A program made the position numbers and the translations under genes. 22,363 nucleotides of DNA, taken from IMG/VR virus record IMGVR_UViG_3300021964_012597, positions 1 to 22,363 of that record; one strand, given 5' to 3'. Every line of letters begins with the position of its first letter. Position 1 is the stretch's first letter. Source of the DNA: a virus. Below, piece after piece: positions 3,286-22,123 of this stretch. The notes beneath the pieces are model-generated. The model was not told the DNA's origin. It was given only the letters and a program-made list of their open reading frames with translations, and searched no databases.

Positions 3286-3665
3286 TAAAAACCTTTTTTC
3301 ATTAACTCTATGAGCTTTTTACCCTGTTCGCTCTCGGGGTCTACCATTGGTTTTGTAACCATAACTGAATTTCCTTTTCCTCCGTAAGAGCGAGCTTTAA
3401 ATTCTTTTAAAAGCTTATTTTTTAGCATAGACCTATTTCCAGAAGGCAATAAACCAGCTTTTACGGCCAATCTTTGCATATCTGTTAAATTCATTGAAGC
3501 TAAATTTTCTTGAAATATCTCAAGATCGTTTGTTTTGAATGGATTAATTTGATGTACTCCCATTATTTTTTCTAAATTCCTGATTTCCTCTAAATCAGTT
3601 TTACCGTCAGCTACCTGCATCTCTTCAAGAACTTCTTTATTAGATTTTGTTTTTTTTCTTGGCAT
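3285..3665 (-). CDS. Small basic protein with SAP-like helical motif, possibly a head/neck accessory protein
   Basis: 126 residues with a Lys-rich N-terminus (MPRKKTKSNK). Residues about 56-92 read like a SAP-type helix-extended-helix: MNLTDMQRLAVKAGLLPSGN followed by a basic helix. SAP-like motifs often bind DNA in phage and cellular proteins, which would suit a protein contacting the genome or capsid interior. The start is supported by a TAAGG Shine-Dalgarno about 9 nt upstream. A terminator hairpin separates it from the major capsid gene and a GCGTATTATA/GTGTA promoter-like stretch lies before it, so it probably starts a new transcript with its overlapping downstream neighbour. The exact function is unknown. 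Confidence 0.5.
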   Translation of the reverse strand: MPRKKTKSNKEVLEEMQVADGKTDLEEIRNLEKIMGVHQINPFKTNDLEIFQENLASMNLTDMQRLAVKAGLLPSGNRSMLKNKLLKEFKARSYGGKGNSVMVTKPMVDPESEQGKKLIELMKKGF

Positions 3666-3687: not shown

Positions 3688-3703
3688 TACACTTATAATA
3701 CGC
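3688..3703 (-). promoter_or_regulatory. Promoter-like element GCGTATTATA with GTGTA, upstream of the SAP-like gene
   Basis: On the minus strand GCGTATTATA (3703 to 3694) is one base from the GTGTATTATA element found before phoH and the Cys-rich gene. It is followed closely by GTGTA (3692-3688). The start codon is 27-38 nt downstream and has a Shine-Dalgarno, so this unit would have an ordinary short leader. It lies just after the major-capsid terminator, as expected for a new start of transcription. Confidence 0.4.
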
Positions 3704-4895: not shown

Positions 4896-5510
4896 TTATG
4901 CGTCTAATTTAATCATGTAGTAATTACCAGCATAACCATCGTCAGATGCACGAGAACCTGTTCCTAAAACAACGCCAATTACGGGGTCATCAGAAGCGCC
5001 ACTAGCTATTGGGCCAATTTTGCCAACATCAGACTTGGAAATTTTAAACTGATCTCCAACGCCTATTGTTCCGTCAACTGCGTCAGCGGTGATTGTGAAA
5101 ACACCTTTTGTTGCGATAGGCACTGCTTCGCCAGAACCAACAGCTTGCATTTCTGCTTTTTTAGTTGGGTTGTAAAGAAGCTTTTCGCCATTTTCGTCAC
5201 GATTAAGTGTTTGATTTAATGTAATACCAACGCATGGGCTACCAGTAGTAGCAGCAGCAACCTTCAAAGGTACTGTTGGTAAATAATTTCTGCCAACTGG
5301 AGAAGCGTGTTGGTAGCCAACTAATGAATTATTGAGATACTCAATTGGGTCAGAATCAAGGTCTCCAACGGAAACCTTAACGAAGACTCCGTTATCATTA
5401 TCTCCATTTGTGTTTGGGTCATCAAGACCAGCGGAGGTAGTAGATAACGCGAATAAATTTATAACGTTTTTTTCGCTATATTGTTTGTATGGTAGTAGTC
5501 TAAGTGCCAT
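4896..5510 (-). CDS. Putative capsid decoration (cement) protein, copy A
   Basis: 204 residues, beta-rich, no membrane segment. The opening MALRLLPYKQYSEKNVINLF recurs in slightly changed form in the gene at 20433-21086. So do the NGDNDNGVFV loop, the VGITLNQTLNRDENGEKLL block and the C-terminal ASDDGYAGNYYMIKLD. The middle part, with EAVPIATKGVFTITA and then VGDQFKIS, resembles the small barrel of DUF2190-type capsid cement proteins. It lies between the protease-scaffold gene (5-nt gap) and the major capsid gene, the classic position for a decoration protein. Decoration is inferred from fold resemblance and position. Confidence 0.6.
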   Translation of the reverse strand: MALRLLPYKQYSEKNVINLFALSTTSAGLDDPNTNGDNDNGVFVKVSVGDLDSDPIEYLNNSLVGYQHASPVGRNYLPTVPLKVAAATTGSPCVGITLNQTLNRDENGEKLLYNPTKKAEMQAVGSGEAVPIATKGVFTITADAVDGTIGVGDQFKISKSDVGKIGPIASGASDDPVIGVVLGTGSRASDDGYAGNYYMIKLDA

Positions 5511-7124: not shown

Positions 7125-7589
7125 TTAATACATGCAACCTACGCCTGGAACACATGGTGCATAAGCAGTTTTATACTCTTTATCATATGCTATTGCACAG
7201 GCCATATACGCCCTGTCTTCATCCAAACCTTCTGTATCAACAGAATCTTTTGCGTGAGACATGCAATTTGCGATATACTTTTGATGTTGCTCTTTTTCAG
7301 ATGCAGGGACCTTCATGTAACCAGCTTCACTTTCCTTTTCCTCTTCCATCATCATACCACAATGACTGGCTGTTAATTTTTTCATTAAAGCTTCGTGAGA
7401 CTCCCCAGGCATAAAAACACTATCTTCGCCCATCTTGTGAGTATGTATTTTATCAAAACCCATTTTCTTCGCCATTTTCATAGCCTCACCAGGGTTATCA
7501 AATTGGTACTTCGATATATCCTCGGCGGAAGTAATCTCAATTTCTACAGTTTGGCCCTTTTGAACTAAATTAGTTTTTAAATTTTTCAT
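7125..7589 (-). CDS. Small conserved phage protein of the head module, unknown function
   Basis: 154 residues. It lies between portal and protease and is probably transcribed from the GTGTAT element just upstream. The N-terminal half is a segment with His/Gly: AMKMAKKMGFDKIHTHKMGE, followed by a PGESHEALM block. The end carries several cysteines (Cys133, 148, 154 region, ending PCVPGVGCMY). From memory, similar pieces with a His-Thr-His and PGxSH signature occur in structural regions of aquatic phages, sometimes fused to protease or portal genes. I cannot name a tested function. Metal binding through the His and Cys residues is possible but unproved. Confidence 0.6.
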   Translation of the reverse strand: MKNLKTNLVQKGQTVEIEITSAEDISKYQFDNPGEAMKMAKKMGFDKIHTHKMGEDSVFMPGESHEALMKKLTASHCGMMMEEEKESEAGYMKVPASEKEQHQKYIANCMSHAKDSVDTEGLDEDRAYMACAIAYDKEYKTAYAPCVPGVGCMY

Positions 7590-7599
7590 ATTTTATCAT

Positions 7600-7613
7600 A
7601 AGTAAATACACAT
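7600..7613 (-). promoter_or_regulatory. GTGTAT promoter-like element before the 154-aa gene
   Basis: Minus strand ATGTGTATTTACTT (7613-7600), with GTGTAT starting 22 nt before the ATG at 7589. It sits in a 45-bp gap after the portal stop codon. The gap also holds an A-run/T-run junction (7614-7626) that could bend DNA or act as a weak stop. The element is shared with seven other transcription-unit heads in the window. Confidence 0.5.
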
Positions 7614-7634: not shown

Positions 7635-9605
7635 TCATGGCGCATTTTGAGATTCATGATAAAGTATCGCAGCTGGATAAACTTCCAAGCTATGTTTTTC
7701 GCACAAGTCATGTATTTCAGTCTTAACATCTAATTTTTCTATTTTAGATATATCATTTAAGCAAGCTTCCATTGTTGATTGCCATTCATTTTGGTCAGTA
7801 GAAACTACTATAGATTTCGCTAATTCAGAAACCATTTCTTTTTGTTGCTTACTTAATCTCTTTTTATTAAATACTTTTCTCGCAGAAGATAATGACTCTT
7901 TATTAAATTGTTCAATTTCATAAACAATTGATTGAATGCCCTCTCTAGAATGCATATTAGAAGCTTCTTGCGGTACGCCAGTTGTACCTGTTGGCCGACC
8001 AACCTCTGGAGGCGGTCCTGAAGTTTTAGTTTTAACCCCTGGGCCTTCATCTTCTTCTATCATAGGAACACCCCCTACAATTGGATTAAAGTAGCCCTTT
8101 TTACGCTGCTCAACATATTTTTCTTGAGCATCTTCTAATTGAGACGGTTCTGGGTATACTCCAGTTTTAATCGCCTTGATGCCCTCCTCTGGAGGTAATA
8201 TACCAAGCTCAATAAGCCTTGTAACGACTCTCTGAAATTGAACCTCATCTTTTAATTCTATATCCTCAAATTTAGCAATTGGATATTTTCTGAAGCCCAT
8301 ATTTTGACAAACCATTTTGATTTGGGGCTGAAGAAAATCATTTAAAAATGCATTCCTTGCCTCCTTTAATCTTTCCAAAAATATTTGAGCTTTTACTTGG
8401 GTATTTGCAAATTTTTCATTTCCAACAATGATGTTCTGCAAACCCTCCCTAATATCCTCATTAACAATTTGGTATTTTTCTGGCCCTATTACTTTTCTTA
8501 AATCAGGAATTACGAACTCTGCTTTTGTGGTATAATCAGATACTAAAACCCTGCCAACGCTTTCATTTTGAAATAATGACTGCATGGCATTTAAATTACT
8601 TGAGCTAACACCGCCTTTATCTGGATCTGTACCCATTGTGATTAATAAAATCACATTTTGAATAGTTCTACTAATTGCTTGGTCAATTTTTTTAAGCTCT
8701 ATCTTCCAATTAATATCATCAAGAACTGGATACCCAAAAGGTATAGCAAATGGCTCGTAATCCTGCTTTTTATAAAATGAATAAATTAATTTCTTTGGGT
8801 CCAGGGTCATATAAGCGCCATCATTACTCCATTGATTAGATGATATTTTATCTCTAAGTTCTGGCTCTAACGATTTTAAAATTTCTTTATCGTAATCCGT
8901 TTTTGGGAATTTTAACCTCTCCAAATCGTAAGCAGATAAAACTTTTTTATAAATACCCTGATCAAAAGATGAGCTCGATTCAATAGTAATATCATAAGGG
9001 TTAAGCATGATATATTTAACAGGTATTTTACCTGGAGCTAAGGACCCAGATCCATAAACCTGAATCAGTTTATTAAAATCTTCTGCGCTGAATTTGCCAT
9101 CTACTCGATAAAGAAATATATTCCCAGATCGATAGTATTCCCTGAAATATTGATCTTTTAAATTCCAGATTTTAATTTTGTCGAACCATTTATTTATAAA
9201 ATCTTTTGATTTAGAATTGCCGCCCTCAAGGTATACATCTGAATTCGACAGCTCACTCATAATGTCAATAGCGTTCCTAAATATTGGAACATTTGCGTAA
9301 GCTTTTTGACAAAGCTCAATTGTATCTCTGACATTCACGCCCTGAGAGGATGTCTCGTAAGGTAGTAAGCCACTGTCAATATTTGTAAATTTATTTAATT
9401 TCGCTTTGCGATGTATCGAATTACTTCTGCGGGTTGTAGTAGTCGCGGAAGCTTTTGATTCAAATTTATAAAATGATTCACCATCAAACCTTGGTTCCCA
9501 ATTATGCTCTTGTTGACCTAAGTTGCTAACAATTTTTTCTATTGGCTCATCTTTGTTGAATTTTTTCCAGTAATCTGAACGTTTAGTATATTTTCTCTTT
9601 GACAT
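7635..9605 (-). CDS. Portal protein
   Basis: 656 residues from the ATG at 9605 (MSKRKYTKRSDYWKKF). A GTG five codons upstream is in frame but lies inside the promoter-like element, so it is not used. The N-terminal region has the usual portal pattern, PYETSSQGVNVRDTIELC and ANVPIFRNAIDIMSELSN, then a wing/crown-type region with YFREYYRSGNIFLYRVDG. This is followed by a long helical stem and clip (KVIGPEKYQIVNEDIREGLQ, then FLERLKEARNAFLNDFLQPQ). The C-terminal 130 residues are charged and probably face the capsid interior. The length is in the upper range for portals. The protein forms the dodecameric ring through which DNA enters, docking with the terminase encoded just upstream. The assignment is strong from order and pattern. 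Confidence 0.85.
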   Translation of the reverse strand: MSKRKYTKRSDYWKKFNKDEPIEKIVSNLGQQEHNWEPRFDGESFYKFESKASATTTTRRSNSIHRKAKLNKFTNIDSGLLPYETSSQGVNVRDTIELCQKAYANVPIFRNAIDIMSELSNSDVYLEGGNSKSKDFINKWFDKIKIWNLKDQYFREYYRSGNIFLYRVDGKFSAEDFNKLIQVYGSGSLAPGKIPVKYIMLNPYDITIESSSSFDQGIYKKVLSAYDLERLKFPKTDYDKEILKSLEPELRDKISSNQWSNDGAYMTLDPKKLIYSFYKKQDYEPFAIPFGYPVLDDINWKIELKKIDQAISRTIQNVILLITMGTDPDKGGVSSSNLNAMQSLFQNESVGRVLVSDYTTKAEFVIPDLRKVIGPEKYQIVNEDIREGLQNIIVGNEKFANTQVKAQIFLERLKEARNAFLNDFLQPQIKMVCQNMGFRKYPIAKFEDIELKDEVQFQRVVTRLIELGILPPEEGIKAIKTGVYPEPSQLEDAQEKYVEQRKKGYFNPIVGGVPMIEEDEGPGVKTKTSGPPPEVGRPTGTTGVPQEASNMHSREGIQSIVYEIEQFNKESLSSARKVFNKKRLSKQQKEMVSELAKSIVVSTDQNEWQSTMEACLNDISKIEKLDVKTEIHDLCEKHSLEVYPAAILYHESQNAP

Positions 9606-9620
9606 TGTAATATTGTACAC
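9606..9620 (-). promoter_or_regulatory. GTGTAC promoter-like element immediately before the portal start
   Basis: Minus strand GTGTACAATATTACA directly abuts the portal ATG, with GTGTA starting 15 nt before it. TACAAT is itself a fair -10 hexamer. If used as such, transcription would start at or next to the start codon and give a leaderless message. No Shine-Dalgarno is visible. Confidence 0.5.
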
Positions 9621-9658: not shown

Positions 9659-12600
9659 TTATGTTATGAACATTGGGACAAAAGTATTTTGAACCTTAAT
9701 CGACTCTACGTTCATCATGTCATAATATGATTTTACCATCCATGCTCCAAGTACAAAAGCCGAATAACTATCTTTCCTGGCTTTATCTGGGCCACCTTGT
9801 CTTTTTAGGGATTGAGGCAAATCAAATGTTTGAGTTCCTTGTGGCGAAACCTTGATATTAATCAAAGCGCATTCTGTCTTCGTGAGATTAATCATATCAT
9901 ATTGATGTTCAATGAAATCAATCATTTTAGCGTCCTTACCCTGATTATTTTCAGAGTCCTTATTTCTTAAAAACTTTAATTTGTCAATCGGTATTCTTTT
10001 TGACCTTTGATCGTGGTAATCTTCATTTACTGCCCTAGAGGCGAACCATATTTTCTTTTTATCAAAACATGCTTGTAAATGTTCGTTAGCCCTACTGATC
10101 CATCCGCTGGTAGGCTTTCGAAGCACACAGATTCTTTTTTCACTAAGATTATATTCGTTCTTTGCGGCCCTTAATACTTTTTGATAATTTTCAGTATCAT
10201 CAAGCTCAACATCAATTGTTTTTATTTCGATTTTAGAGGATTTAAATAATTCACTTTCATTAGCTGCGCTAATAAATTGCACGCCACCATTGTAGTCGCC
10301 GCATATCCCAACAACATTAAAATGAGTCAAAATATAATGAAAATAAAAGATATGATCTTTCATCCTTGCTCCAGATAAAGCGTAACTATGCACAAGAGTG
10401 CCTTGTTTTGCATTATCATTAATTTTAAAAACCTGCATAGCGAAATCGTCACTGCTTTCACTTTCTGCCCAAGACGGGTCAAAAGATAAAATATACTTAC
10501 CATCTGGGTCACCACATACTTGTATTGATTGGCCCTCTCCATCTTCAATCGTACATGCAGCCATTTTTGATGTCTTGAAATACCCAGAGCTATCATCTGT
10601 AAATATCGCGCCAAACTCTCTATCAAATTGACTTTGACTCATTGAGGCTTTTGCTTGGTCAATCAAATTTTTATCATACAATTGTTTTGGCGCACAGTCA
10701 TAACTAAACTGCATAACAACCCGATGCGCCTCCACATTTTTTTCGTGGCCATCTCCAAGTATTAAATTATCAAATTTTTCATAAAGTTTATAAAGGTATT
10801 CGAATTTATAAGACGCAGAAGAAAGCATTATTAATTTATTGTTTGGCCATCTATATCTTTCGCTTTCTTGCATTTTACCTTGAGATATCATCTCTGTTTC
10901 AAGATTATAAATGTCTTCTCGTTCAGTAGGATTTTCTACAACAGACAAGAATGGGACAATAACTTCGTTATAAATTCTTTCTGGCATTAGCAACATCTCA
11001 TCAATAATAATCCTATGAAATCTAAAACCACGAAGTTTTTCGCCATCCCCTAGCGGCAATGCATGTATTTGGCTTTCGCCTATCTCCATAGTCCATTGGT
11101 CATTACTTTTACTTTTTCGGGTAATGCACTGGCCAAGCATTTGAGCCTCTGGCTTATTTGCAATATCTTCGATTTTTTTAAAAATCATTTTGGCCTGACG
11201 AAAAGATTTACTAATTATGCCAGTCTGAACACCTTGATTAAGAATAGCGTCCAAAAAAGCAAAGATACCAGTAGTGAATGATTTGGACATACCGCGAGAA
11301 TTATGATGCACGATTCCATTGCCAATATAATTCTCTTCGTTCTCAACGGTAATATCTACAGAAATTGTTTTGCACTCTCGTATCTCCTTAACCTTAGAGA
11401 ACACGACCCGCTCCTGTTGGATTTCGTCAATTAAATCCCGCGTACTTGAGTCAATACCAACCAAGTCCTTAAATCTATTCTGAGAGAAATTTTCACCCCA
11501 TGATCCGCGTACCCCAGTAATACTCTTGAAAGAGCCTTGCTCCTTAAGCATTTTACCCAATCCTGGAACCAAGCTGTTTTGGTAATTTCTTTTTTTAGAT
11601 CTCTGTATGATTGTATTTAAATTATCTTTTTTATGCCTTACGATAAAATCAACTTCATTTTGGAATTTCAGCAATGAATGGTAATCATTACTGATTACCA
11701 AGTCATAATAAGGCGTCCCATTATGCTCTCCGCTTTTCCTTAAGTTAGATTCAATGCCTATATTATTCAATAACATTTTTACCTGCCTCAACATTTCAAG
11801 CGATGTATTCTTTAACCCAACCTTACTAGAAGATTTTAAGTAGGATGCGTACCCATCCGCATCAAACAAACCGCCTATAAGAGCACATAATTCAACTCCT
11901 GAAGCTTGCAAAAGTTCATCTGGAATAATTTTGTTTTTACTTTTTAGTGATTTATCCCAACCAAAACCTTCCAAAAATGACACTAGCTTTCGGTTAAATA
12001 TGGAATATTCATAAAAATTTAAATTCCCACTCTTTTGTCTAGAGTAAGATTTAAAACTGTTTGTTTTAATAAAATTCAAAATAACATCCTGCACCTCTGA
12101 ATTCTCAGAACAGTAATGTATGCCGTTTTTGTCAACATAGCCATCCCCAAGAACATAACCAAGTAGATAAAACAAATAAGGAGATCTTTTGATGCTTGAC
12201 TCTTTTGTGATATCATTGTCGCCCCACACGTTAGTCCCAAGTTTAATAGGTATATGATCTTCTGTTGTAATATCTTTTATATTTTTAAACTCAAACTTTC
12301 CTTTAGTATCATAAACTAAAGTCTTATGACCGATTTTTGCCTTAAATGAGTCTCCAGACTGGGTTGATATAAATAAACCATCTTCTTCCTTATTAACCCA
12401 TTTGTCTGAAACAAGGTTAAGCTTTTTTCTCGATCTGACCTTTTCACCGATCTTAATGTTTTTGATTTTTTTAAACCCAGACTCGGAAAGAACATATTCG
12501 TTTTGATCCAAACACCAAATCCCCAAGAAGTAATCCGACTCCAACATCGACTTAATTGCCATATGTTGAAAAGGGAACAGTTTTACCCCAGACAATAAAT

Positions 12601-12751
12601 CAACCGCAAAAGTGCTATTACCTCTTAAAAATTTATATAAAAGAAGTTTAGCTTCTCTTTCGTCCAGAAAACCTTCTTTATTCAGAATAAGTTCATTAAT
12701 TTTTGACGAGTAGTTTGCTCTCTGGGCTTGATTACCTGTATCCCAGCTCAT
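9659..12751 (-). CDS. terL: Terminase large subunit interrupted by an intein
   Basis: 1030 residues as translated, 625 after removal of a 405-aa intein. The start at 12751 overlaps the cupin stop (ATGA) and has a strong GGAGG site upstream. The extein shows the packaging motor: P-loop SRGMSKS rebuilt at the splice junction (compare SRQLGKT in T4 gp17), Walker B IIIDEM, then LIMLSSASYK as coupling motif. The C-terminal RNase-H-like nuclease has its three acidic positions in ILSFDPSW, GICGDYNGG and KMIDFIEHQ. It pumps DNA through the portal encoded next and cuts concatemers. The P-loop departs from the classic GK(S/T) by having Ser before Lys. It is the last gene of a six-gene overlapping operon. 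Confidence 0.92.
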   Translation of the reverse strand: MSWDTGNQAQRANYSSKINELILNKEGFLDEREAKLLLYKFLRGNSTFAVDLLSGVKLFPFQHMAIKSMLESDYFLGIWCLDQNEYVLSESGFKKIKNIKIGEKVRSRKKLNLVSDKWVNKEEDGLFISTQSGDSFKAKIGHKTLVYDTKGKFEFKNIKDITTEDHIPIKLGTNVWGDNDITKESSIKRSPYLFYLLGYVLGDGYVDKNGIHYCSENSEVQDVILNFIKTNSFKSYSRQKSGNLNFYEYSIFNRKLVSFLEGFGWDKSLKSKNKIIPDELLQASGVELCALIGGLFDADGYASYLKSSSKVGLKNTSLEMLRQVKMLLNNIGIESNLRKSGEHNGTPYYDLVISNDYHSLLKFQNEVDFIVRHKKDNLNTIIQRSKKRNYQNSLVPGLGKMLKEQGSFKSITGVRGSWGENFSQNRFKDLVGIDSSTRDLIDEIQQERVVFSKVKEIRECKTISVDITVENEENYIGNGIVHHNSRGMSKSFTTGIFAFLDAILNQGVQTGIISKSFRQAKMIFKKIEDIANKPEAQMLGQCITRKSKSNDQWTMEIGESQIHALPLGDGEKLRGFRFHRIIIDEMLLMPERIYNEVIVPFLSVVENPTEREDIYNLETEMISQGKMQESERYRWPNNKLIMLSSASYKFEYLYKLYEKFDNLILGDGHEKNVEAHRVVMQFSYDCAPKQLYDKNLIDQAKASMSQSQFDREFGAIFTDDSSGYFKTSKMAACTIEDGEGQSIQVCGDPDGKYILSFDPSWAESESSDDFAMQVFKINDNAKQGTLVHSYALSGARMKDHIFYFHYILTHFNVVGICGDYNGGVQFISAANESELFKSSKIEIKTIDVELDDTENYQKVLRAAKNEYNLSEKRICVLRKPTSGWISRANEHLQACFDKKKIWFASRAVNEDYHDQRSKRIPIDKLKFLRNKDSENNQGKDAKMIDFIEHQYDMINLTKTECALINIKVSPQGTQTFDLPQSLKRQGGPDKARKDSYSAFVLGAWMVKSYYDMMNVESIKVQNTFVPMFIT
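11300..12514 (-). other. Intein with LAGLIDADG homing endonuclease inside TerL
   Basis: 405 residues, from Cys80 of the terminase (CLDQNEYVLSESGFKKIKNI, block A) to the terminal HHN (NYIGNGIVHHN, blocks F/G). The next extein residue is Ser, so the splicing nucleophiles are Cys1, Asn405 and Ser+1, with the usual penultimate His. Two dodecapeptide motifs, LLGYVLGDGYV and LIGGLFDADGY, mark an apparently intact DOD-type homing endonuclease. Block B has a His in AKIGHKTL, but the usual Thr three positions earlier is Lys. Insertion falls exactly in the ATPase P-loop, a typical conserved target of homing elements. TerL should be inactive until splicing. The splice junction was checked codon by codon. 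Confidence 0.93.
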
Positions 12752-13101
12752 TTTTGTGAACCTCCACAATTCTCCCTCTGTATATCAGATTCACTTAACT
12801 CAACCCAATATATCTCATAAGCAACTGTATCTTCAAGAGCCTCAAACATATGATATTCATTTGGTGGAACTGTAGTCATCTGAAGATCAGTGACCATAGT
12901 CTCATCAACTAAATCGTAATCGTTTTTCCAACAAGTTATTTTTAGCTTGCCCTTTTCAACAAAAAAAGCGTTAAATTTATATTGGTGTTTGTGTTTTGAG
13001 CAGAAGCCGCCTTTTTTAGTTTCGATCCTATGTATTTCTACATTATTTTTGCAAAACAAAGATTGTGTTTCGCCCCAAACTTTTCCTTGAATATTGTTCA
13101 T
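12748..13101 (-). CDS. Small cupin-fold protein
   Basis: 117 residues. The sequence GGFCSKHKHQYKFNAFFVEK has the His-x-His spacing of cupin motif 1, and VPPNEYHMFEALED the Pro-x3-His of motif 2, so a metal-binding single cupin barrel is likely. Opening with KVWGETQSLF and following the same pattern, small cupins of this type occur beside terminase genes in other aquatic phages (from memory). No substrate can be inferred. It starts 2 nt after the ERCC4-nuclease stop, with AAGG before the ATG, and overlaps terL by 4 nt, so it is translated with the packaging genes. Confidence 0.72.
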   Translation of the reverse strand: MNNIQGKVWGETQSLFCKNNVEIHRIETKKGGFCSKHKHQYKFNAFFVEKGKLKITCWKNDYDLVDETMVTDLQMTTVPPNEYHMFEALEDTVAYEIYWVELSESDIQRENCGGSQK

Positions 13102-13103
13102 GT

Positions 13104-14027
13104 TTAACCTTTTTCGTGTTTATCTATATAGTATTGTAAATCTACATTCCACAGTTTTTTACCATTAAATAATAATTTTGGAATTAATTTTTCTGAATTT
13201 TGCCTGTTACCCGTAAATATAAACTGGCAATTTTTACTAAATTCATGCTGTATCGCCCGCATATTATGAAAAATATAATTAAGATTTGCCTTGTGCGCCG
13301 AGTATCTGTTATTCTTTTGAATTTTATCAATCGACGATTCTGTTACCACGTAAAGAAAGCTGTCAAATTTTTTAGCTCTTTCCAATTCTGACCTAAATCG
13401 ATGAAGATTATTACTTGATAAAGTTGATTTAAAATCGGTCTCACTTTTCCTATCGACATACGTATAAGAATAATACTCACCAGATGTAGTATAATCTCCG
13501 AAATCTAATTTCATTAATGAGGAATTTTTAAAAGTCAAAGGCTCTTGCTCTCTAGTGTCAATAAATATTGTTAAATCATCAGGCACATGGCTATTGAAAA
13601 ATTTTTGGTTTATAGACTTGTTAAACATTGGCGGAACGCCTACCTGTTTACAAACCTCAGAATAGCTACCAAATATTTTTTGACATAAATCAATACTCGG
13701 CAAATTTAAAGATTGTAACTCCAGATGAAATGGAGCGAATTTCAACTCCTTCTCTTTTACCCTGCTTGAGATTTTTTTTATTATATAAGCTGCAACAGTT
13801 TGCTTGTCCTCTTGCTTGCACCATTCAATAAATTCATTCCTATTGCAAAAATCAGTGTTAAAATAATCTTTTTTGTTCTTGAAAGGGATAGGCGTCCGAT
13901 GCAATAAACTCTGCCTGGGATAATATGTTGTATAATATTCAGCCATTGTAATTCCATGGCTTTTAAAGTGCTTATGTAATCCAGATTCAGATTTGAAAGT
14001 TTGGCCGCATATTTTACACTCGTTCAT
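13104..14027 (-). CDS. C2H2 zinc finger fused to ERCC4/XPF-family nuclease
   Basis: 307 residues. A C2H2-type finger opens the protein: Cys4, Cys7, His20, His24 in ECKICGQTFKSESGLHKHF. Residues about 25-60 continue with the SHGITMAEYYTTYYP type extension seen after such fingers in phage proteins. The C-terminal half is an ERCC4 nuclease: IFIDTRE (Asp157, Arg159, Glu160), LDFGDY (Asp178) and VDRKSETD (Arg193, Lys194, Asp198), followed by LHRFRSELERAKKF. This core cleaves structured DNA such as flaps and branches in known relatives. It overlaps the upstream HTH gene by 4 nt (ATGA). The likely job is resolving branched DNA before or during packaging, which is inference. An alternative is a free-standing homing-type endonuclease. 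Confidence 0.82.
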   Translation of the reverse strand: MNECKICGQTFKSESGLHKHFKSHGITMAEYYTTYYPRQSLLHRTPIPFKNKKDYFNTDFCNRNEFIEWCKQEDKQTVAAYIIKKISSRVKEKELKFAPFHLELQSLNLPSIDLCQKIFGSYSEVCKQVGVPPMFNKSINQKFFNSHVPDDLTIFIDTREQEPLTFKNSSLMKLDFGDYTTSGEYYSYTYVDRKSETDFKSTLSSNNLHRFRSELERAKKFDSFLYVVTESSIDKIQKNNRYSAHKANLNYIFHNMRAIQHEFSKNCQFIFTGNRQNSEKLIPKLLFNGKKLWNVDLQYYIDKHEKG

Positions 14028-15076
14028 AAAATATCATCCCTTCCTATCCCTAAAACCCTTGCTTTCCAAGAAGCCATATTCTCCATTCTTTCAGCCTCTT
14101 CATCTACGGTTTTCTTTTGCATTTCTGCTATCAACACCATTCTCTTACGCTCTTCCTCGTCTTGAAATAACCTAACCAAAGATAATATAGAGGCATTATC
14201 TTTTCTCCGCGAATCAATTCTCTTAGCCCTATCACCATTTAATTTTTGAATTAAAGATTCCATTCTTTTTTCGCACTGATTATATTCTTCGCTTTTTGTT
14301 TTTAATAATTCAGCAAGCCTAACAGTCATATCTTGCTGTTCATCAGCTTCATTAAACATTCGATTTAATTTTTCTATATGACCAGAAATGTTTTTCAGAT
14401 TAATATAATCCACACAAACATTAATATATAAATTGATTTCGTCAGCGGTTAAATCTGGCTTGTCCCATGTAGCTCTAATAAATTCGGCTTCAAATAATTC
14501 TCTATCCCCTTCGTTATTATAACTATTGATTGTTTGCAAGAAACGGGGTGAGGACAAAAAGTTTTTTAAGGTTTCAATACATTTTTTTTCATGAACAGGC
14601 AGCTTATTTAATTCAAGAGATTCGTTTGCAAATTTATTTATCCTATTCAAAGATTCCAATAAGTTTCTTGGCGACTCGTATCTTTTCCCCAGCGCTGACT
14701 CTGAATCATGGACCTGTTCTGGAGCGCGTTTTCTGATATATTCTGCAGCTACCAAGGTCTCTTTACTAAGAGGCGTTATTCTTTTATCTGGGAACATTAA
14801 ACAAGCTACTTCGTATGCAGACATGCCATCTTCGGCAGAGTTTAAAATAAATTCTTTTTGCTCCTTACTTAAGGTTATATTCTTAACTTTTTCGCGCTTA
14901 GTCGTTTTAAACTTAAGCCCTTGCTCTATTAAAAACTCTCGTACAGCGCGGCCTTCTTTGCTTCGACCATCTAAAGCATCATTATTATAAACCAGTTTTG
15001 TTAATTTAATTAAATCTGGAGTTTTATCATAATTGTCTACTATAAGTTTTTTTTGTTCTTCTGATAAATTACTCAT
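14024..15076 (-). CDS. Tandem helix-turn-helix protein, candidate small terminase
   Basis: 350 residues, almost all helical. Two similar repeats of about 50 residues open the protein: LSEEQKKLIVDNYDKTPDLI near residues 4-53 and LSKEQKEFILNSAEDGMSAY near 69-116. Each ends in a (R)SKE or LSKE helix, as in HTH DNA-binding units. The rest is a long charged, coiled-coil-like helix (ERKRMVLIAEMQKKTVDEEA) with a short C-terminal tail. The gene overlaps sigma by 8 nt and the nuclease by 4 nt and precedes terL in the same operon. Small terminases join an HTH to an oligomerising helical core and sit upstream of terL, so this is the best candidate here. No direct homology was tested. Confidence 0.55.
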   Translation of the reverse strand: MSNLSEEQKKLIVDNYDKTPDLIKLTKLVYNNDALDGRSKEGRAVREFLIEQGLKFKTTKREKVKNITLSKEQKEFILNSAEDGMSAYEVACLMFPDKRITPLSKETLVAAEYIRKRAPEQVHDSESALGKRYESPRNLLESLNRINKFANESLELNKLPVHEKKCIETLKNFLSSPRFLQTINSYNNEGDRELFEAEFIRATWDKPDLTADEINLYINVCVDYINLKNISGHIEKLNRMFNEADEQQDMTVRLAELLKTKSEEYNQCEKRMESLIQKLNGDRAKRIDSRRKDNASILSLVRLFQDEEERKRMVLIAEMQKKTVDEEAERMENMASWKARVLGIGRDDIL

Positions 15077-15788
15077 GAATAATGACGTCTTTTTTCTGTA
15101 ATATAGAAATTATTTTTTCTTTAAAAGTTTTTTTAAGGTTTTTAATTTGTTTATAACCTGCTTTACGACCCTTTTCATTTGTTCTGTAGCCCATTTTAGC
15201 AGCAACCTCCTCTTCGTTCTTATTTTCAATAAATAGCATTTGATATATTTTGTAGTTTTTGGGAGATAGGCATTTCTTGAGTTCTGCGTGAACCTTCTCT
15301 AATGACAACTCTAAATCAAATTGCTTCTCGTCCTGAATAAAAGAGTCTGCTGAACAGCCTTCAATTGATATTGCCATCTGAATATCATAAGCGCTTTTTT
15401 TAGTTTTTTCCCATTTTGCATATAAGGGGCATTCGTTGCACTGTAAGCCGCTTTGCGTAAAATCACAAAGCTCATCTGAAAAATTTCCTTCTTGGTTATT
15501 ACTAGATTGGGCAAATGGACAATTCAAGCACGGCCTAGAGTAATTAGAATAATTATTTCTTAGTATGTTCTTAATTTGATTACTAATTACTCTATTTAAC
15601 CAAGGTTCTAATGGTCTACTCTGGTCCCATTGACCCCATTTTTTATATATATGAGCCCTTATAATTTGACAAACATCATCGAAGTCTATCCAGCTGACAG
15701 AGTTTAAAAACCATTTCCCCCTGCGCTTTTGTAACTCATGGTCGATTATGTCTTTTTTGTCTTCATATTTAAATTCTTGTTTATCCAT
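15069..15788 (-). CDS. Phage sigma-70-like factor with Cys-rich insert
   Basis: 239 residues. Residues about 20-85 match sigma region 2: KWFLNSVSWIDFDDVCQIIR, then the WDQSRPLEPWLNRVISNQIK core with the usual Asn/Gln helix. Residues about 172-225 look like a region 4 HTH (LSPKNYKIYQMLFIENKNEE, then EVAAKMGYR). Between them is a Cys cluster, Cys87-x2-Cys90, Cys108, Cys117-x2-Cys120, likely a zinc site; ordinary ECF sigmas lack it. It should bind host core RNA polymerase and redirect it, most likely to late phage promoters. It overlaps the zinc-ribbon gene before it by 8 nt. Placement in the packaging operon recalls late sigma factors such as T4 gp55 in role, though the sequence is not obviously gp55. 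Confidence 0.8.
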   Translation of the reverse strand: MDKQEFKYEDKKDIIDHELQKRRGKWFLNSVSWIDFDDVCQIIRAHIYKKWGQWDQSRPLEPWLNRVISNQIKNILRNNYSNYSRPCLNCPFAQSSNNQEGNFSDELCDFTQSGLQCNECPLYAKWEKTKKSAYDIQMAISIEGCSADSFIQDEKQFDLELSLEKVHAELKKCLSPKNYKIYQMLFIENKNEEEVAAKMGYRTNEKGRKAGYKQIKNLKKTFKEKIISILQKKDVIIHE

Positions 15789-16104
15789 TTTCGCGCGGTT
15801 TTTTATCCTTTAAGTCTCTACGCGCAATACCTTGGGGATTTGACCTTTGGTCAAATAATGACTCGAATTTAAAATAAGATCCTTGATTGTGTTCAATTTC
15901 GCAATCTAATCCTTGAATATCAGGGACGTAATCAACATCTGTTTCGTCCTCCATCAACTTAACACTTTTCTTTCGTGTTGAGGTCAAATTTGATCTAGAG
16001 ATACTTTGATTAGATAGCGGCTCACCACAATTACCACAAAACTTTGGCGGCTTTAGTGAGTAAATATTTTTGTGTCCACATTGAGTGCAGTATTCGCTTT
16101 TCAT
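15781..16104 (-). CDS. Small zinc-ribbon protein, possible sigma partner
   Basis: 107 residues. Cys6, Cys9, Cys23 and Cys26 (YCTQCGHK and FCGNCGEP) make a compact zinc ribbon. A basic linker (TSTRKKSVK) follows, then an acidic patch (MEDETDVDYVPDIQGLDCEI). It is the first gene of the packaging operon and its last 8 nt lie within the start of the sigma gene, so the two products are probably made together. The acidic patch and ribbon would suit a polymerase- or sigma-binding accessory protein, but that is only a guess from position. The upstream 33-bp gap has a weak AGTATAAG stretch and no clear GTGTAT element. Confidence 0.6.
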   Translation of the reverse strand: MKSEYCTQCGHKNIYSLKPPKFCGNCGEPLSNQSISRSNLTSTRKKSVKLMEDETDVDYVPDIQGLDCEIEHNQGSYFKFESLFDQRSNPQGIARRDLKDKKPRENG

Positions 16105-16137: not shown

Positions 16138-16728
16138 TCAATTCGCTGAAATATAGCCACCAATAATAGTAGATTGATTTTGTAAAAATTTGATCTGATC
16201 TTCGGTTAGTTTTTTTATTTGGGCGACGTAATCAACACTAAAGATACCGATAGGTTTTCCTGTTAGGGTTTTAATAGGAAAAGAATAGACGCTCTTAACG
16301 CCTTGGTTTTTTAAATGTTCGCGCTCTGTGCAAGAATGAATTTTACTGACATCCTCGCATAAAAACATTTCTTCTTTTATAGTATCTTTAACTAAAATAT
16401 TAAAATTTGAAATTCTTAAGTTTTGCAATTTAGTGCATTCAGAGCTTATCCCATCACGTACAACCTCATACGTGTTACTAAATTTTTGTTGAGAGCTTCC
16501 AGAGTAATAAGTTTCACCATTATGAAACTCAAAAACATGAACTCTATCACAACTTAGTCTCTCCATTGTATATTCAAGGGCAGCGTAAACATTCGCGTTT
16601 TGATCAACGTGGCTTCTTAATAATTGGCTTTTTGATTTTGTGCTTAACTTGATTTTGAAATAACTAGTTATTATTGCAGCAGATAAAGTCGCTGCTGCCC
16701 CAATAATTGCTGCTAAAATGATTTCCAT
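16138..16728 (-). CDS. Membrane-anchored GAF-like domain protein
   Basis: 196 residues from the ATG at 16728, where the protein begins directly with a hydrophobic anchor (MEIILAAIIGAAATLSAAII); the longer upstream frame overlaps the neighbouring gene. A Lys/Ser-rich linker leads to a domain from about residue 45, with RVHVFEFHNGETYYSGSS, a Cys-bearing middle and a C-terminal SVYSFPIKTLTGKPIGIFSV strand pair. This pattern resembles GAF domains, which bind small ligands or sense redox state. It is the third gene of a cassette of three membrane proteins, starting 4 nt after the coiled-coil gene. A regulatory role in lysis or envelope signalling is possible; enzymatic residues are not seen. Confidence 0.62.
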   Translation of the reverse strand: MEIILAAIIGAAATLSAAIITSYFKIKLSTKSKSQLLRSHVDQNANVYAALEYTMERLSCDRVHVFEFHNGETYYSGSSQQKFSNTYEVVRDGISSECTKLQNLRISNFNILVKDTIKEEMFLCEDVSKIHSCTEREHLKNQGVKSVYSFPIKTLTGKPIGIFSVDYVAQIKKLTEDQIKFLQNQSTIIGGYISAN

Positions 16729-16732
16729 TATT

Positions 16733-17185
16733 TTATTGTTTTTGAGGGTTATTGGTTTCCAATTTGTCAATTAACAATTGTTTGTTTGCATCTATTTTAT
16801 TATGTATCATATACACATCTTGTCTTCTAGCCTCTAAGACGGTTTCTGTTTTACTCCAGTAGTAAAGAATTTCATCTTTCAACTCTTTTTTGATGCTATC
16901 AACATATTGACGTTCAGTTTTTAACTCATCTCTAAGCTCGCTTTTTGTTGAATCTATAACAGCTTTTAACTCATCATCCTTGTGTCTCTCTTCGCTTTTA
17001 AAAGTATCAAGAGATTTTCTTAAGCCAAATATTTCTGACCTAACGAATTCCATACCCTTTTCGGCGGTATCTTCGGCTTGCTTAATATCATTCATTAAAG
17101 ATTTAATAACAAAAGCTACTGAACCTGTTACAAATGTACCGCAAACGCATACAGCTATAGTAGTAATAATATCAATTTCGCTCAT
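16733..17185 (-). CDS. Membrane-anchored coiled-coil protein (lysis-cassette candidate)
   Basis: 150 residues from the ATG at 17185, which has AGGA just upstream and lies 1 nt after the holin-like stop. One N-terminal membrane segment (IITTIAVCVCGTFVTGSVAF) is followed by a long charged coiled coil (SEERHKDDELKAVIDSTKSE) to the end. Single-anchor, coiled-coil architecture resembles spanins of Rz type or other envelope-bridging lysis proteins, but no lipoprotein partner is seen. Placement between a holin-like and a GAF-like membrane protein supports a shared role at the membrane. Function not proved. Confidence 0.55.
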   Translation of the reverse strand: MSEIDIITTIAVCVCGTFVTGSVAFVIKSLMNDIKQAEDTAEKGMEFVRSEIFGLRKSLDTFKSEERHKDDELKAVIDSTKSELRDELKTERQYVDSIKKELKDEILYYWSKTETVLEARRQDVYMIHNKIDANKQLLIDKLETNNPQKQ

Positions 17186-17616: not shown

Positions 17617-17640
17617 TTATATATATATAAATATATACAC
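17617..17640 (-). promoter_or_regulatory. GTGTAT promoter-like element before the holin-like gene
   Basis: Minus strand GTGTATATATTTATATATAT (17640-17621), beginning 28 nt before the ATG at 17612. The rest of the gap is an alternating TA run. It starts the unit that runs through the three membrane genes. No Shine-Dalgarno is visible. Confidence 0.45.
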
Positions 17641-17989: not shown

Positions 17990-18556
17990 TTATCCTACTA
18001 TCGCGTTTAAACAAGAAGCGCTCGTGCCTCCAACAACACAAAATATCAAACATCCAGTATTTAAACCAAAAAATAGACATTTATTTGTGGCGCAAACCGT
18101 ACCATCGTTTGCTATGGTTCGATAGGTGCACAAAACATTATATTCTGTATTTGCGTTAACAACATGAGCGCAAGATTGGCCACTTACCTTAACTATTGTG
18201 GTACTCAATAAACCGTTCGTCACACATGCTCCGCAATAACCCCCATTAAAACTCAAACACCAACTAGAATCAGGGTGACCTATATCGTCTTGTTTTAGGT
18301 AATATGCTATGCAAGAATTAGAAATTTGATCTGCATACCAATCAGATCCACTACTTTGAACCTGTGCGTAACTATTTCCAGCGCAGCTACCTACGGTTGG
18401 ACTATAACCCTTTAAACACGCATAAAGGTAACCGCCCTCAAAAACTTCAAATTGGTTTGACACCCCATTAAGGCCAAATGAATTTTGTGTGGGATGGATA
18501 TGATTATATAAACTTATATCCGATGTATTTACAGGTCTTTGGGTGCAGTTACTCAT
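17990..18556 (-). CDS. Cysteine-rich protein of unknown function
   Basis: 188 residues with 14 cysteines, spread through the protein and densest in the last third (CATNKCLFFGLNTGCLIFC). It is rich in Gly, Ser, Asn and Tyr and beta-like, with no signal peptide or clear membrane anchor; the last 40 residues are hydrophobic. Cysteines do not follow a zinc-finger spacing, so disulfides or several metal sites are more likely. It begins its own unit, with a GTGTATTATATA element ending 5 bp before the ATG, and is coupled to the 108-aa gene. A disulfide-knit virion surface or adsorption protein would fit. That is inference; the family is not recognised. Confidence 0.6.
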   Translation of the reverse strand: MSNCTQRPVNTSDISLYNHIHPTQNSFGLNGVSNQFEVFEGGYLYACLKGYSPTVGSCAGNSYAQVQSSGSDWYADQISNSCIAYYLKQDDIGHPDSSWCLSFNGGYCGACVTNGLLSTTIVKVSGQSCAHVVNANTEYNVLCTYRTIANDGTVCATNKCLFFGLNTGCLIFCVVGGTSASCLNAIVG

Positions 18557-18573
18557 TACAATATATAATACAC
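18557..18573 (-). promoter_or_regulatory. GTGTATTATATA promoter-like element before the Cys-rich gene
   Basis: Minus strand GTGTATTATATATTGTA runs straight into the ATG at 18556. The first 12 bases are identical to those before phoH. GTGTAT starts 17 nt from the start codon, leaving no room for a Shine-Dalgarno if transcription starts 6-7 nt after a TATTAT -10. Confidence 0.55.
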
Positions 18574-19308: not shown

Positions 19309-19323
19309 TACTATATAATACAC
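19309..19323 (-). promoter_or_regulatory. GTGTATTATATA promoter-like element before phoH
   Basis: Minus strand GTGTATTATATAGTA directly precedes the ATG at 19308. It is the mirror partner of the plus-strand GTGTA element at 19332, 8 bp away. Confidence 0.55.
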
Positions 19324-19331
19324 ACATTTAA

Positions 19332-19346
19332 GTGTAAATTATATAT
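19332..19346 (+). promoter_or_regulatory. GTGTA promoter-like element before the mini-protein gene
   Basis: Plus strand GTGTAAATTATATAT ends right at the GTG start at 19347, 15 nt from motif to start codon, as for phoH and portal. It is the only clear plus-strand copy next to a gene start, apart from a GTGTA at 939-943 in the hairpin before paralogue 2. Confidence 0.45.
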
Positions 19347-19532
19347 GTGACTAAAAAAGATATCTTAGATAAACTTGCATTAAACCTTGATACGTACCAA
19401 GCGACATCCTGGCTTGGGAAAAAGAATAAAAACCTTAATGATAAAACTCCAGCAGAACTTATTTTTGATGACAAGCTTGAAGATGTTATTAAAGCGCTAG
19501 ATTTAGAAATAAAAAAGACAAAAAGAAAATAA
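19347..19532 (+). CDS. 61-aa protein resembling the MbcA/ParS/Xre antitoxin toxin-binding domain
   Basis: 61 residues from a GTG start that fits the promoter spacing. The region SWLGKKNKNLNDKTPAELIF resembles the WL-x-NxxL-xxxTPxEL signature of the DUF2384-type (MbcA/ParS/Xre) toxin-binding domain, reduced to one domain with a short basic tail. In toxin-antitoxin pairs that domain grips a RES-type toxin. No toxin is encoded next to it, so it may be an orphan antitoxin or an unrelated small binding protein. It is divergent from phoH and has the opposite strand to nearly all neighbours. Similarity is by motif memory only. Confidence 0.5.
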   Translation: MTKKDILDKLALNLDTYQATSWLGKKNKNLNDKTPAELIFDDKLEDVIKALDLEIKKTKRK

Positions 19533-19864: not shown

Positions 19865-20443
19865 ATGAATCCAAACTACATATGTAATCCCTCTGATAAA
19901 GTGGTTTTAATATTAAGTCAGTTCTGGACACCAATTAATATCACAACAGCCAAAGAAGGAATATTAAAATTATCATCCAGTTCACATGTAAAAGCTATTT
20001 CAAATGGCGGACAACCAATGAAATGGGAAGAATGGGTTGAATGTAATTATCTTTACGAAAATCAACCGTTTTTAAGAAGTGTTAATTTCTTGTTTCCTGT
20101 TCCGACCATTTTATTGACGTCAACAAAATGGTCTTACAGGTGTCACGAAGAGCCAAACATAGAATATTTATACAAAAGATTTAAAGGCGCTTGTCAAATA
20201 TGTGGTGATAAATTCCCGATCAGTAAAATGTCTATTGAGCATATTTACCCTAAAAGCAAAGGCGGAAATAATAATTGGTACAACCTTACAATATCTTGCA
20301 AGCGATGCAATTCACAAAAAGGTAATATCTACCCTTATGCTAATCACGAAGGGCAAACGCTAAAGGCGTCAGCGCCTTTGCCCTATTTTCACACCTTTTC
20401 GAAAAGGAGAAAAGAGTGGAACCCTTTTCTGTTTAAAACTTAA
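19865..20443 (+). CDS. HNH endonuclease
   Basis: 192 residues. The N-terminal part (DKVVLILSQFWTPINITTAK) matches the beta-strand lead-in common to stand-alone phage HNH proteins. The nuclease core is Cys110-x2-Cys113 (CQICGDK), ISKMSIEHIYPK with His126 as the likely general base, an Asn-rich loop (GGNNNWYNLT) and Cys145-x2-Cys148 (CKRCNSQKGN), a zinc-supported HNH fold. It nicks or cuts DNA; in phages such genes are often free-standing homing elements, though some assist packaging. It runs against the surrounding genes and its 3' end overlaps the decoration-paralogue gene by 11 nt, which suggests insertion into the region. Confidence 0.85.
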   Translation: MNPNYICNPSDKVVLILSQFWTPINITTAKEGILKLSSSSHVKAISNGGQPMKWEEWVECNYLYENQPFLRSVNFLFPVPTILLTSTKWSYRCHEEPNIEYLYKRFKGACQICGDKFPISKMSIEHIYPKSKGGNNNWYNLTISCKRCNSQKGNIYPYANHEGQTLKASAPLPYFHTFSKRRKEWNPFLFKT

Positions 20444-21086
20444 ACGCCATGCCAGTGTCGAGCTTAATAATGTAATACTTGCCTGGGAACGCATCGTCAC
20501 TTTCACGTTCTCCTTTGGCTAATACTACGGCGATAGGTTTGCGATCACCTAGAAGAAAGACTGGCACATCATTAAACCCTATAAATTTTCCCGTGGAATT
20601 AAGGTCCCAAGTCAAGTAATCGCCAACATCTACTTCTGCATCAAATGCTGACGCAGTTAATGTGAAGATTCCAGCCGTTGCAATAGGAACCTCTTTATAT
20701 GGCAAAACTGCACCTAATTCAGTGAGCTTTGTGTCGCGCCCTAAAAGAGGTTCCCCGTTTTCGTCATACTTTAATGTTTGCCTCAAGGTAATACCGATAG
20801 GCCTATTATTGGCTACATAAGGAGCCTGGACATACGAATTATAGAAAAACCCAACTCTTCCAATAGGCGAAGAGTGAACTTTAGGCGACCATCCACTAGC
20901 CGAACTGCCACTAGCCCAATATAAATTACGTTGAATCGATGGGTAAACCAAAACACCGTCATCATTATCCCCATTTAAAAATGGGTTTTCAATGCCGTTT
21001 TCGCCAGATGAACCGTAGCCCATAGTAAATTCGTTTATGACGTCTTTCTCGTCGTATTGTCTAAAAGGTAGTAATCTTTTTGCCAT
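20433..21086 (-). CDS. Putative capsid decoration protein, copy B
   Basis: 217 residues, a clear paralogue of the protein at 4896-5510. It shares the MAKRLLPFRQYDEKDVINEF opening, the NGDNDDGVLV loop, PIGITLRQTLKYDENGEPLL, and the ending SDDAFPGKYYIIKLD. It is longer by an insert after the N-terminus (NLYWASGSSASGWS) and by a short C-terminal tail. EVPIATAGIFTLTASAFDAE again resembles a DUF2190-like cement barrel. No Shine-Dalgarno is visible; the ATG follows an A-rich leader and a GTGTAT element. It lies well away from copy A and may be an alternative or vertex-specific decoration protein. The paralogy is strong, the function inferred. Confidence 0.6.
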   Translation of the reverse strand: MAKRLLPFRQYDEKDVINEFTMGYGSSGENGIENPFLNGDNDDGVLVYPSIQRNLYWASGSSASGWSPKVHSSPIGRVGFFYNSYVQAPYVANNRPIGITLRQTLKYDENGEPLLGRDTKLTELGAVLPYKEVPIATAGIFTLTASAFDAEVDVGDYLTWDLNSTGKFIGFNDVPVFLLGDRKPIAVVLAKGERESDDAFPGKYYIIKLDTGMAFKF

Positions 21087-21140: not shown

Positions 21141-22106
21141 TTAAAAATTTTCATCATCAATGAAGTCGTATTCTTCATCATGTTCAATGCCAAATCTTTG
21201 ACAATCGAGTTTTGCTAAAATTAACTCCTCTATTGTGAAATAGATCGCAAATTGCTCTTCTGTTCTTAATAAAGATGCATTCATTACATCCTGGTCTGCG
21301 GCCTTGTATGATTTTTTAACCTTTCCGCCCCGCACCATTTTCAGAAACATATTGACTCTCGCCATCGCCCATTGGCCACGGGTTTTCCCAGGCCTATGGC
21401 TAGAAGAAAATGCGCCAGCGCCACGACGATATATTTTTTTTAATTGAGAAAGGGTTACTTTTTTAGAATATTTTTTATTATGTTCTGCGACTTTTCGCTT
21501 TAACCCTTCAATCACTCTTTGGCTAAATTCTATATTAACACCTTTTTTGCCAGCAGATCCAGGTTTGTTCTTTTTAGAACCCTTTTTTCTTTCTGATTTT
21601 TTTGACGGCGTTTGTGCTGAAGATTTTGGCCCAGGTCGTTTCGCCGCTTCAGTCTTCTGCTTACATGGACAATCTTCGTTACAAGAGCAATCTTCTTCTT
21701 TATCATCATCATCTTCGACAATTTCTGCTGAAGCTAATGAAGGATTAAGCCCTAATAAATAATCTTGCTCCTCGAAAGTTTCTCCGTCCCATTCTTCTTC
21801 GCTGCCCTTAAGATAATCTGAAACTGATTTTTTAGATTCCCACATCTTGCAAGACCAATAACGAGCTTTTGTTTTGGGCCCAGGATTACTACAATTATGT
21901 CTTGCGCGGAAATTTTTCCTGCGATCTGGATCGTCACGCTTGATTTCCATCTTCGGGTCACCAAAACGCACTAATACTACGTTACCTTTTTCGTTTTTAA
22001 CATAAACTCCAAATTTTTTAGTATTCCCTTTCGGTAAGCGGAAAGGTTTGTTTAAAGTTTTGTTTTCGTTTTTGCCTGATATGTTTTTGGAAAAATCAAG
22101 TTCCAT
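21141..22106 (-). CDS. Multidomain phage protein with conserved aquatic-virus domains, function unknown
   Basis: 321 residues in three parts. Residues about 19-90 form a block (KPFRLPKGNTKKFGVYVKNE, then RFGDPKMEIKRDDP, and HNC with a later YWSCKMW) that I recall as a common domain in marine phage structural proteins. Residues 131-185 change from Asp/Glu-rich to a CSCNEDCPC cluster to a Lys/Pro/Ser-rich basic linker. Residues 190-275 form a second recurring block (KKIYRRGAGAFSSSHRPGKT, then GQWAMARVNMFLKMV). The C-terminus is acidic. A GTGTAT element begins 17 nt upstream of its start. It lies at the head of the block with decoration copy B, so a structural or assembly role is plausible, but no biochemical function is known to me. 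Confidence 0.62.
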   Translation of the reverse strand: MELDFSKNISGKNENKTLNKPFRLPKGNTKKFGVYVKNEKGNVVLVRFGDPKMEIKRDDPDRRKNFRARHNCSNPGPKTKARYWSCKMWESKKSVSDYLKGSEEEWDGETFEEQDYLLGLNPSLASAEIVEDDDDKEEDCSCNEDCPCKQKTEAAKRPGPKSSAQTPSKKSERKKGSKKNKPGSAGKKGVNIEFSQRVIEGLKRKVAEHNKKYSKKVTLSQLKKIYRRGAGAFSSSHRPGKTRGQWAMARVNMFLKMVRGGKVKKSYKAADQDVMNASLLRTEEQFAIYFTIEELILAKLDCQRFGIEHDEEYDFIDDENF

Positions 22107-22123
22107 GATAATAGTTTATACAC
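22107..22123 (-). promoter_or_regulatory. GTGTAT promoter-like element before the 321-aa gene
   Basis: Minus strand GTGTATAAACTATTATC (22123-22107) directly precedes the ATG at 22106, again with no room for a Shine-Dalgarno. Confidence 0.5.

Follow-up and report, generated by a model that had tools for sequence, protein, structure and literature searches.

How a sigma-like protein carrying a cluster of cysteines comes to lie among phage packaging genes, what those cysteines do and which promoters the protein serves are the questions raised by this locus. The window, that is, the whole stretch of DNA that was analysed, is a complete IMG/VR record of 22,363 bases. On its minus strand, genes follow in the order GAF-like protein, zinc-ribbon protein (ZR), sigma factor (C4 sigma), p3, ERCC4 nuclease, a 117-aa protein, terminase with intein and probable portal:

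16138-16770, minus strand: GAF-like protein
15781-16104, minus strand: ZR, 107 aa, with a Cx2Cx13Cx2C motif at residues 6-26
15069-15788, minus strand: C4 sigma factor, 239 aa (Pfam, AlphaFold model, PDB fold matches, 187-sequence alignment)
14024-15076, minus strand: p3, 350 aa, directly downstream of the sigma; possible small terminase (helical hairpin)
13104-14027, minus strand: ERCC4-type nuclease with a zinc finger at the N-terminus (profile matches)
9659-12769, minus strand: terminase large subunit, interrupted by an intein (profile matches)
7635-9620, minus strand: probable portal (weak profile match)

The coordinates and strand of the sigma and ZR genes, and their 8-nt overlap (15781-15788), had been given correctly by the first-pass annotation, which also placed the sigma in a packaging operon; the operon is indeed linked to packaging and is of late type. 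Because the sigma and p3 genes (8 nt) and the p3 and nuclease genes (4 nt) overlap as well, overlap is a habit of this operon and not peculiar to ZR and sigma. The terminase intein is of the LAGLIDADG type and occupies residues ~81-485 of the frame. Elsewhere in the window, a paralogous pair of proteins (4896-5510 and 20433-21086) shares the start MA.RLLP..QY.EK.VIN.F and is probably of the capsid-decoration type.

The product of 15069-15788 is a sigma-70-family protein that consists of region 2, a Cys-bearing linker and region 4:

Residues ~5-83: sigma2
Residues ~84-155: C4 linker module
Residues ~158-234: sigma4

The Pfam model Sigma70_r2 scores 28.1 bits against the window protein (cut-off of 24 bits) and the region 2 model matches 54 of the 54 aligned relatives, while the Pfam region 4 models match just 9 and 3 of these 54. 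In an AlphaFold model of the sigma, both sigma2 and sigma4 are confidently predicted and the middle of the chain is poorly modelled (insert pLDDT of ~47-71; overall pTM of 0.39). The top PDB matches from Foldseek are all sigma factors, none with E < 0.001; sigma2 aligns with the SigE domain 8b3z (Z 7.4, 2.5 Å, 74 residues) and sigma4 with CnrH 4cxf (Z 7.5, 3.0 Å, 67 residues). These results are in agreement with the earlier proposal that sigma region 2 and a region 4-like HTH flank the cysteines. Residues D38 and Q41 are invariant in the alignment of relatives and presumably fit the clamp-binding part of region 2. The conserved region-2 residues suggest that binding to core polymerase has been retained.

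The linker features are as follows:

15429-15530, minus strand: Cys module (Cys87, 90, 108, 117 and 120), in which 87, 90, 108 and 120 are invariant and the loops variable
15396-15431, minus strand: CPLYAKWEKTKK segment, which starts at the last Cys (conservation)

Five cysteines at positions 87, 90, 108, 117 and 120 had been reported by the first-pass annotation. The positions are correct, but just four of the residues are invariant: Cys87, Cys90, Cys108 and Cys120 are unchanged in 187 of 187 distinct relatives, in which His46 likewise never varies, whereas position 117 is Cys in 88 sequences, Asp in 80 and another residue in the remainder. As judged from this alignment, Cys117 is not a core ligand. 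The loops between the invariant cysteines vary in length (8-23 and 9-11 residues) and fall into two main spacing groups, x8/x9 and mostly x10-23/x11. Invariant ligands across loops of variable length point to a C4 metal site, structural in appearance, formed by Cys87/90/108/120. The metal is most likely zinc, as had been suggested, with an iron-sulphur site as the alternative. The most conserved stretch of the protein runs from the last Cys onward, CPLYAKWEKTKK. Because it directly follows the region 2.4 helix, the module is proposed to stand in place of sigma region 3; whole-chain fold searches, which probe the insert little, returned no known-fold match for it. A further linker residue of the window sigma, Cys145 (15354-15356), corresponds to His in 168 of the 187 relatives and may be an additional metal ligand. 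A link between Cys117 and the C-terminal Cys of ZR was also considered and set aside: the ZR Cys accompanies C117 in 52 of 87 cases and D117 in 15 of 75, a relation that is not strict and is confounded by descent.

Two promoter motifs, CTTGACA and GTGTA[A/T], were found by reading the upstream regions of relatives and by an unbiased motif search, with genes and starts called by a longest-ORF rule. They define two mutually exclusive classes, a host-type TTGACA...TATAAT promoter and a -10-only GTGTA[A/T] promoter. In co-directional leaders, the sense:antisense counts of GTGTA are 14:1, 16:2, 20:1, 19:4 and 26:0 in the group-A genomes G001 to G005, 5:2 in G007, 10:0, 14:0 and 7:0 in the divergent genomes G008 to G010 and 7:1 in the window, a 7- to 34-fold enrichment over the genome. 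At 13-18 nt from the start codon, GTGTA is present in 126 of 1707 genes vs 1 for its reverse complement, and its G precedes the start codon by 14 nt in 61 genes, 15 nt in 30, 16 nt in 13, 17 nt in 18 and 18 nt in 4. The motif is scarce where genes overlap (4/593), and control stretches (T4, Stills, MaeS and one further phage) contain one GTGTA and one TACAC in 139 genes. TTGAC peaks at -35 (92 genes) and -36 (31 genes) relative to the start codon, and both motifs occur together at one gene vs 19.7 expected. A motif search of leaders with neither motif, made for a third class, gave just T-tract/CTTG and Shine-Dalgarno-like signals, and no class proper to C4 sigma was found.

The GTGTA elements of the window are:

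22119-22123, minus strand: 17 nt ahead of the start codon at 22106
19332-19336, plus strand: divergent element ahead of the gene at 19347
19319-19323, minus strand: ahead of the phoH-like gene (start 19308)
18569-18573, minus strand: 17 nt ahead of the start codon at 18556
17636-17640, minus strand: -10-like element heading the run of genes between 17612 and 9659, which includes ZR and sigma
9616-9620, minus strand: 15 nt ahead of the start codon of the probable portal (9605)
7607-7611, minus strand: ahead of the gene starting at 7589
3688-3692, minus strand: ahead of the gene starting at 3665

At 19319-19336, two elements thus stand back to back in the gap that separates the phoH-like gene from a small plus-strand gene.

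The fixed spacings, combined with the usual -35 geometry, would place the transcript start on the first base of the start codon in both classes and GTGTA at -10; at the 14-nt spacing, 58 of 61 genes have a T or C immediately ahead of the start codon. The operon-leading mRNAs of both classes are therefore predicted from the spacing to be leaderless, which would make the lineage an example of such expression. According to a statement in PMC5312081, leaderless transcripts have already been reported for phages. A -10 element at a fixed distance from the start codon is likewise seen in the leaderless genes of Deinococcus-Thermus (PMC12340547), whereas here a phage lineage has two such classes, one of them GTGTA.

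The two classes are clustered along the genomes (p of 0.004-0.016 in each of six records). A 43.6-kb record shares most of the window; in it, GTGTA is found at 2.4-20.5 kb, among packaging and virion genes, and TTGAC at 24-43 kb, where there is one GTGTA exception. Genes led by TTGAC include rIIA, rIIB, nrdA and an endonuclease (G004) and a DnaB-type helicase (G005); those led by GTGTA include the probable portal and tail genes and also a ribonucleotide reductase (G005). The TTGAC promoters are read as early, host-sigma70 promoters and the GTGTA promoters as late ones.

C4 sigma is not the only sigma-like protein of these phages. The 184-205-kb records encode one or two others. A second sigma, ~190-204 aa long, is shared by the five large group-A genomes (G001-G005), and G009, from the divergent group, has it too. 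In G008-G010 a 280-353-aa RpoD-like sigma accompanies C4 sigma, and a second sigma of ~200 aa is not clearly present in two of these records, which are incomplete (117 kb and 68 kb). The operons of the two sigmas differ in their promoters. In six group-A records (G001-G005 and G007), the C4 sigma operon has an intergenic GTGTA site ahead of it, in G003 beside a TTGAC-type element; in G008-G010, GTGTA sites lie 2.7-3.1 kb upstream of C4 sigma, with some opposite-strand ORF calls between. Of the 175 loci whose upstream sequence is long enough, 122 have a GTGTA-led gene within 4.5 kb upstream of C4 sigma, vs 5 for the control. In each of the five large group-A genomes, a host-type promoter lies ahead of the second-sigma operon; in its 74 readable leaders, GTGTA is found in none and the host-type pattern in 61, a loose pattern that also occurs on the opposite strand in 32, so that the firm result here is the lack of GTGTA.

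Since the C4 operon is under GTGTA and the second-sigma operon under a host-type promoter, the first switch to GTGTA is more likely made by the second sigma. The best reading, which we hold tentatively and at slightly less than even confidence, is that C4 sigma is made late, resembles ECF sigmas and is stabilised by zinc, and that together with its partner ZR it keeps late transcription going on host polymerase and is not the first late switch. The protein would have an ECF-type two-domain layout in which the linker has been turned into a C4 module, most likely for zinc, with a basic and almost invariant segment behind it. It would act with the host RNA polymerase, because no phage multisubunit RNA polymerase or beta subunit gene was found in six records. 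Host sigma70 would drive the second sigma, which in turn would turn on the GTGTA genes, including C4 sigma and ZR; C4 sigma would be made late, its operon (ZR-sigma-p3-nuclease-terminase) lying in the GTGTA-governed part of the genome. C4 sigma and the translationally coupled ZR would then most likely maintain late transcription, or redirect it, during the build-up of packaging proteins, and the zinc module, in the place of region 3, could set the geometry of the two domains or give a docking surface.

A somewhat unlikely alternative is that GTGTA is read mainly by C4 sigma itself, with ZR, as a self-amplifying late sigma begun by read-through, and that the second sigma serves otherwise. C4 sigma and GTGTA promoters do occur together in all nine records examined (G001-G005 and G007-G010), among them the two without a clear ~200-aa second sigma, and the C4 operon bears the promoter that C4 sigma would read. 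However, this alternative requires a first supply of the protein, and a conserved second sigma with host-type promoters fits the role of switch more simply. Natural knock-outs were considered as a means of settling which sigma reads GTGTA and were set aside: no genome with one sigma and truly without the other was found, and contigs in which C4 sigma is missing have no terminase either, so they are probably fragments.

Relatives of C4 sigma are encoded on at least 575 IMG/VR stretches, a number well past what chance would give, and three were found in genome bins. A tblastn search of ~50,700 deposited phage records gave no cultured relative of the sigma (best match E 0.5) and no match to p3. 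The lineage is a large, common, mostly marine phage group that has never been cultured, and a family this abundant is missing from the deposited records. One homologue (G021, C1:76278-76946) contains a single in-frame TGA. The pairing of ZR and sigma noted in the first-pass annotation recurs without exception: ZR adjoins the sigma in 211 of 211 testable loci, and the seemingly sole locus without it, L185, is an artefact of an N-terminally extended sigma. Neither of the outcomes that this annotation had named as refuting its view, a profile search without sigma regions or relatives in which the pair never occurs together, is borne out. The two genes overlap in 136 of 214 loci, and p3 lies directly downstream of the sigma in 212 of 212. 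Gaps of more than 150 nt are rare between ZR and sigma (1/214, the L185 artefact) and between sigma and p3 (4/221), compared with p3-nuclease (63/207); the GAF-ZR junction has 1/100. This survey identifies ZR-sigma-p3 as the conserved unit. Because p3 is linked just as tightly, the adjacency of ZR and sigma is no proof of a complex, and binding of ZR to C4 sigma is put forward as a hypothesis. It is unlikely, though a reading to be weighed, that ZR is instead an anti-sigma or an unrelated virion or packaging protein and not a coactivator. Within the block, ZR shows the lowest conservation (mean column identity of 25%), and gene order alone does not show function; the unbroken adjacency and the frequent overlap argue against this view.

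The tight linkage of p3 bears on a further reading, in which C4 sigma would tie polymerase or promoter DNA to the terminase, with ZR and p3 belonging to the complex so formed. By analogy with T4, where gp55 makes physical contact with gp17 and influences packaging in vitro (PMC9026906), such a packaging-linked factor has a precedent; it is consistent with the fixed ZR-sigma-p3 block beside the terminase and with the joint absence of C4 sigma and terminase from contigs. It is nevertheless quite improbable, as synteny with packaging genes may reflect mere late expression and the region-2 residues suggest that polymerase binding has been kept. The identification of p3 as a small terminase is only suggestive: it has no sequence match to the Stills and MaeS proteins at the equivalent position and no Foldseek match below E 0.29, and a second structural aligner lists the HK97 small terminase among generic helical matches (Z 7.6, 93 of 122 residues).

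Among known systems, the parallel to T4 gp55 and gp33 that had been drawn at first fits poorly. In T4, gp55 has a region-2 domain and gp33 replaces sigma4 on the beta flap (PMC7892883). This lineage resembles that system in a phage sigma that would work on host polymerase and in -10-only late promoters; for gp55, a contact between late sigma and terminase is known. In contrast to gp55, C4 sigma has its own sigma4, and it has no sequence relation to gp55 (hhalign probability of 0.2 in a negative profile comparison); gp33 consists of five helices, whereas ZR has a Cx2Cx13Cx2C ribbon motif, and its profile matches are to zinc-ribbon and unknown families and no others. A gp55 homologue (phrog_234) was unmatched among the families listed for 54 members and in seven records (five of 184-205 kb), and these seven records gave no credible match to gp45 (phrog_223), the one clamp match (E 0.013) being negligible. 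A T4-type machinery was rejected on these gp55 and gp45 profile results. C4 sigma would work like a phage late-type sigma but is not a member of the gp55 family.

The group 4 (ECF) sigmas, such as E. coli SigE and M. tuberculosis SigL and SigH, also have sigma2 and sigma4 alone, with matching folds. Unlike their short linker, that of C4 sigma is ~75 residues with the invariant C4 module; C4 sigma is, moreover, phage-encoded, and its partner gene is an upstream zinc ribbon. The closest cultured terminases (24-25%) are those of the Slashvirus Stills and the Microcystis phage MaeS, in which a sigma likewise lies a few kb upstream of the terminase, but these sigmas have no C4 module and no zinc-ribbon gene directly precedes them. 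CorE/CorE2 (ECF238) also have cysteines in the linker between sigma2 and sigma4, and in CorE-like sigmas such a Cys is essential for activity (PMC8999054); CorE, however, is metal-responsive, with a linker CXC and a C-terminal Cys-rich domain, and C4 sigma has a CxxC...C...C linker with no C-terminal domain and no conserved C-terminal Cys. That the module is a metal or redox sensor switching the sigma in the manner of CorE is highly improbable given this absent domain, CxxC in place of CxC, the invariant ligands and the little use of such a signal to a late phage gene.

The open-access literature, in a search that was not exhaustive, gave no published account of C4 sigma or of the GTGTA motif. 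The broader proposition that this is an undescribed sigma class, with a C4 zinc module for region 3 and a dedicated zinc-ribbon partner, that reads a -10-only GTGTA late promoter starting on the start codon and so leaves late genes leaderless throughout the lineage, is doubtful as a whole. If the C4 module is indeed a substitute for region 3, a metal-stabilised module can replace that part of a sigma. The two phage sigmas, the zinc-ribbon protein proposed as partner and the two promoter classes with their constant spacing to the start codon are concrete parts by which late-gene control in an uncultured, mostly marine phage group becomes testable. Finally, at L256 (G003, ~181-185 kb) the motif CAACGACTTATG is repeated in the leaders of small genes and is possibly a regulator site.
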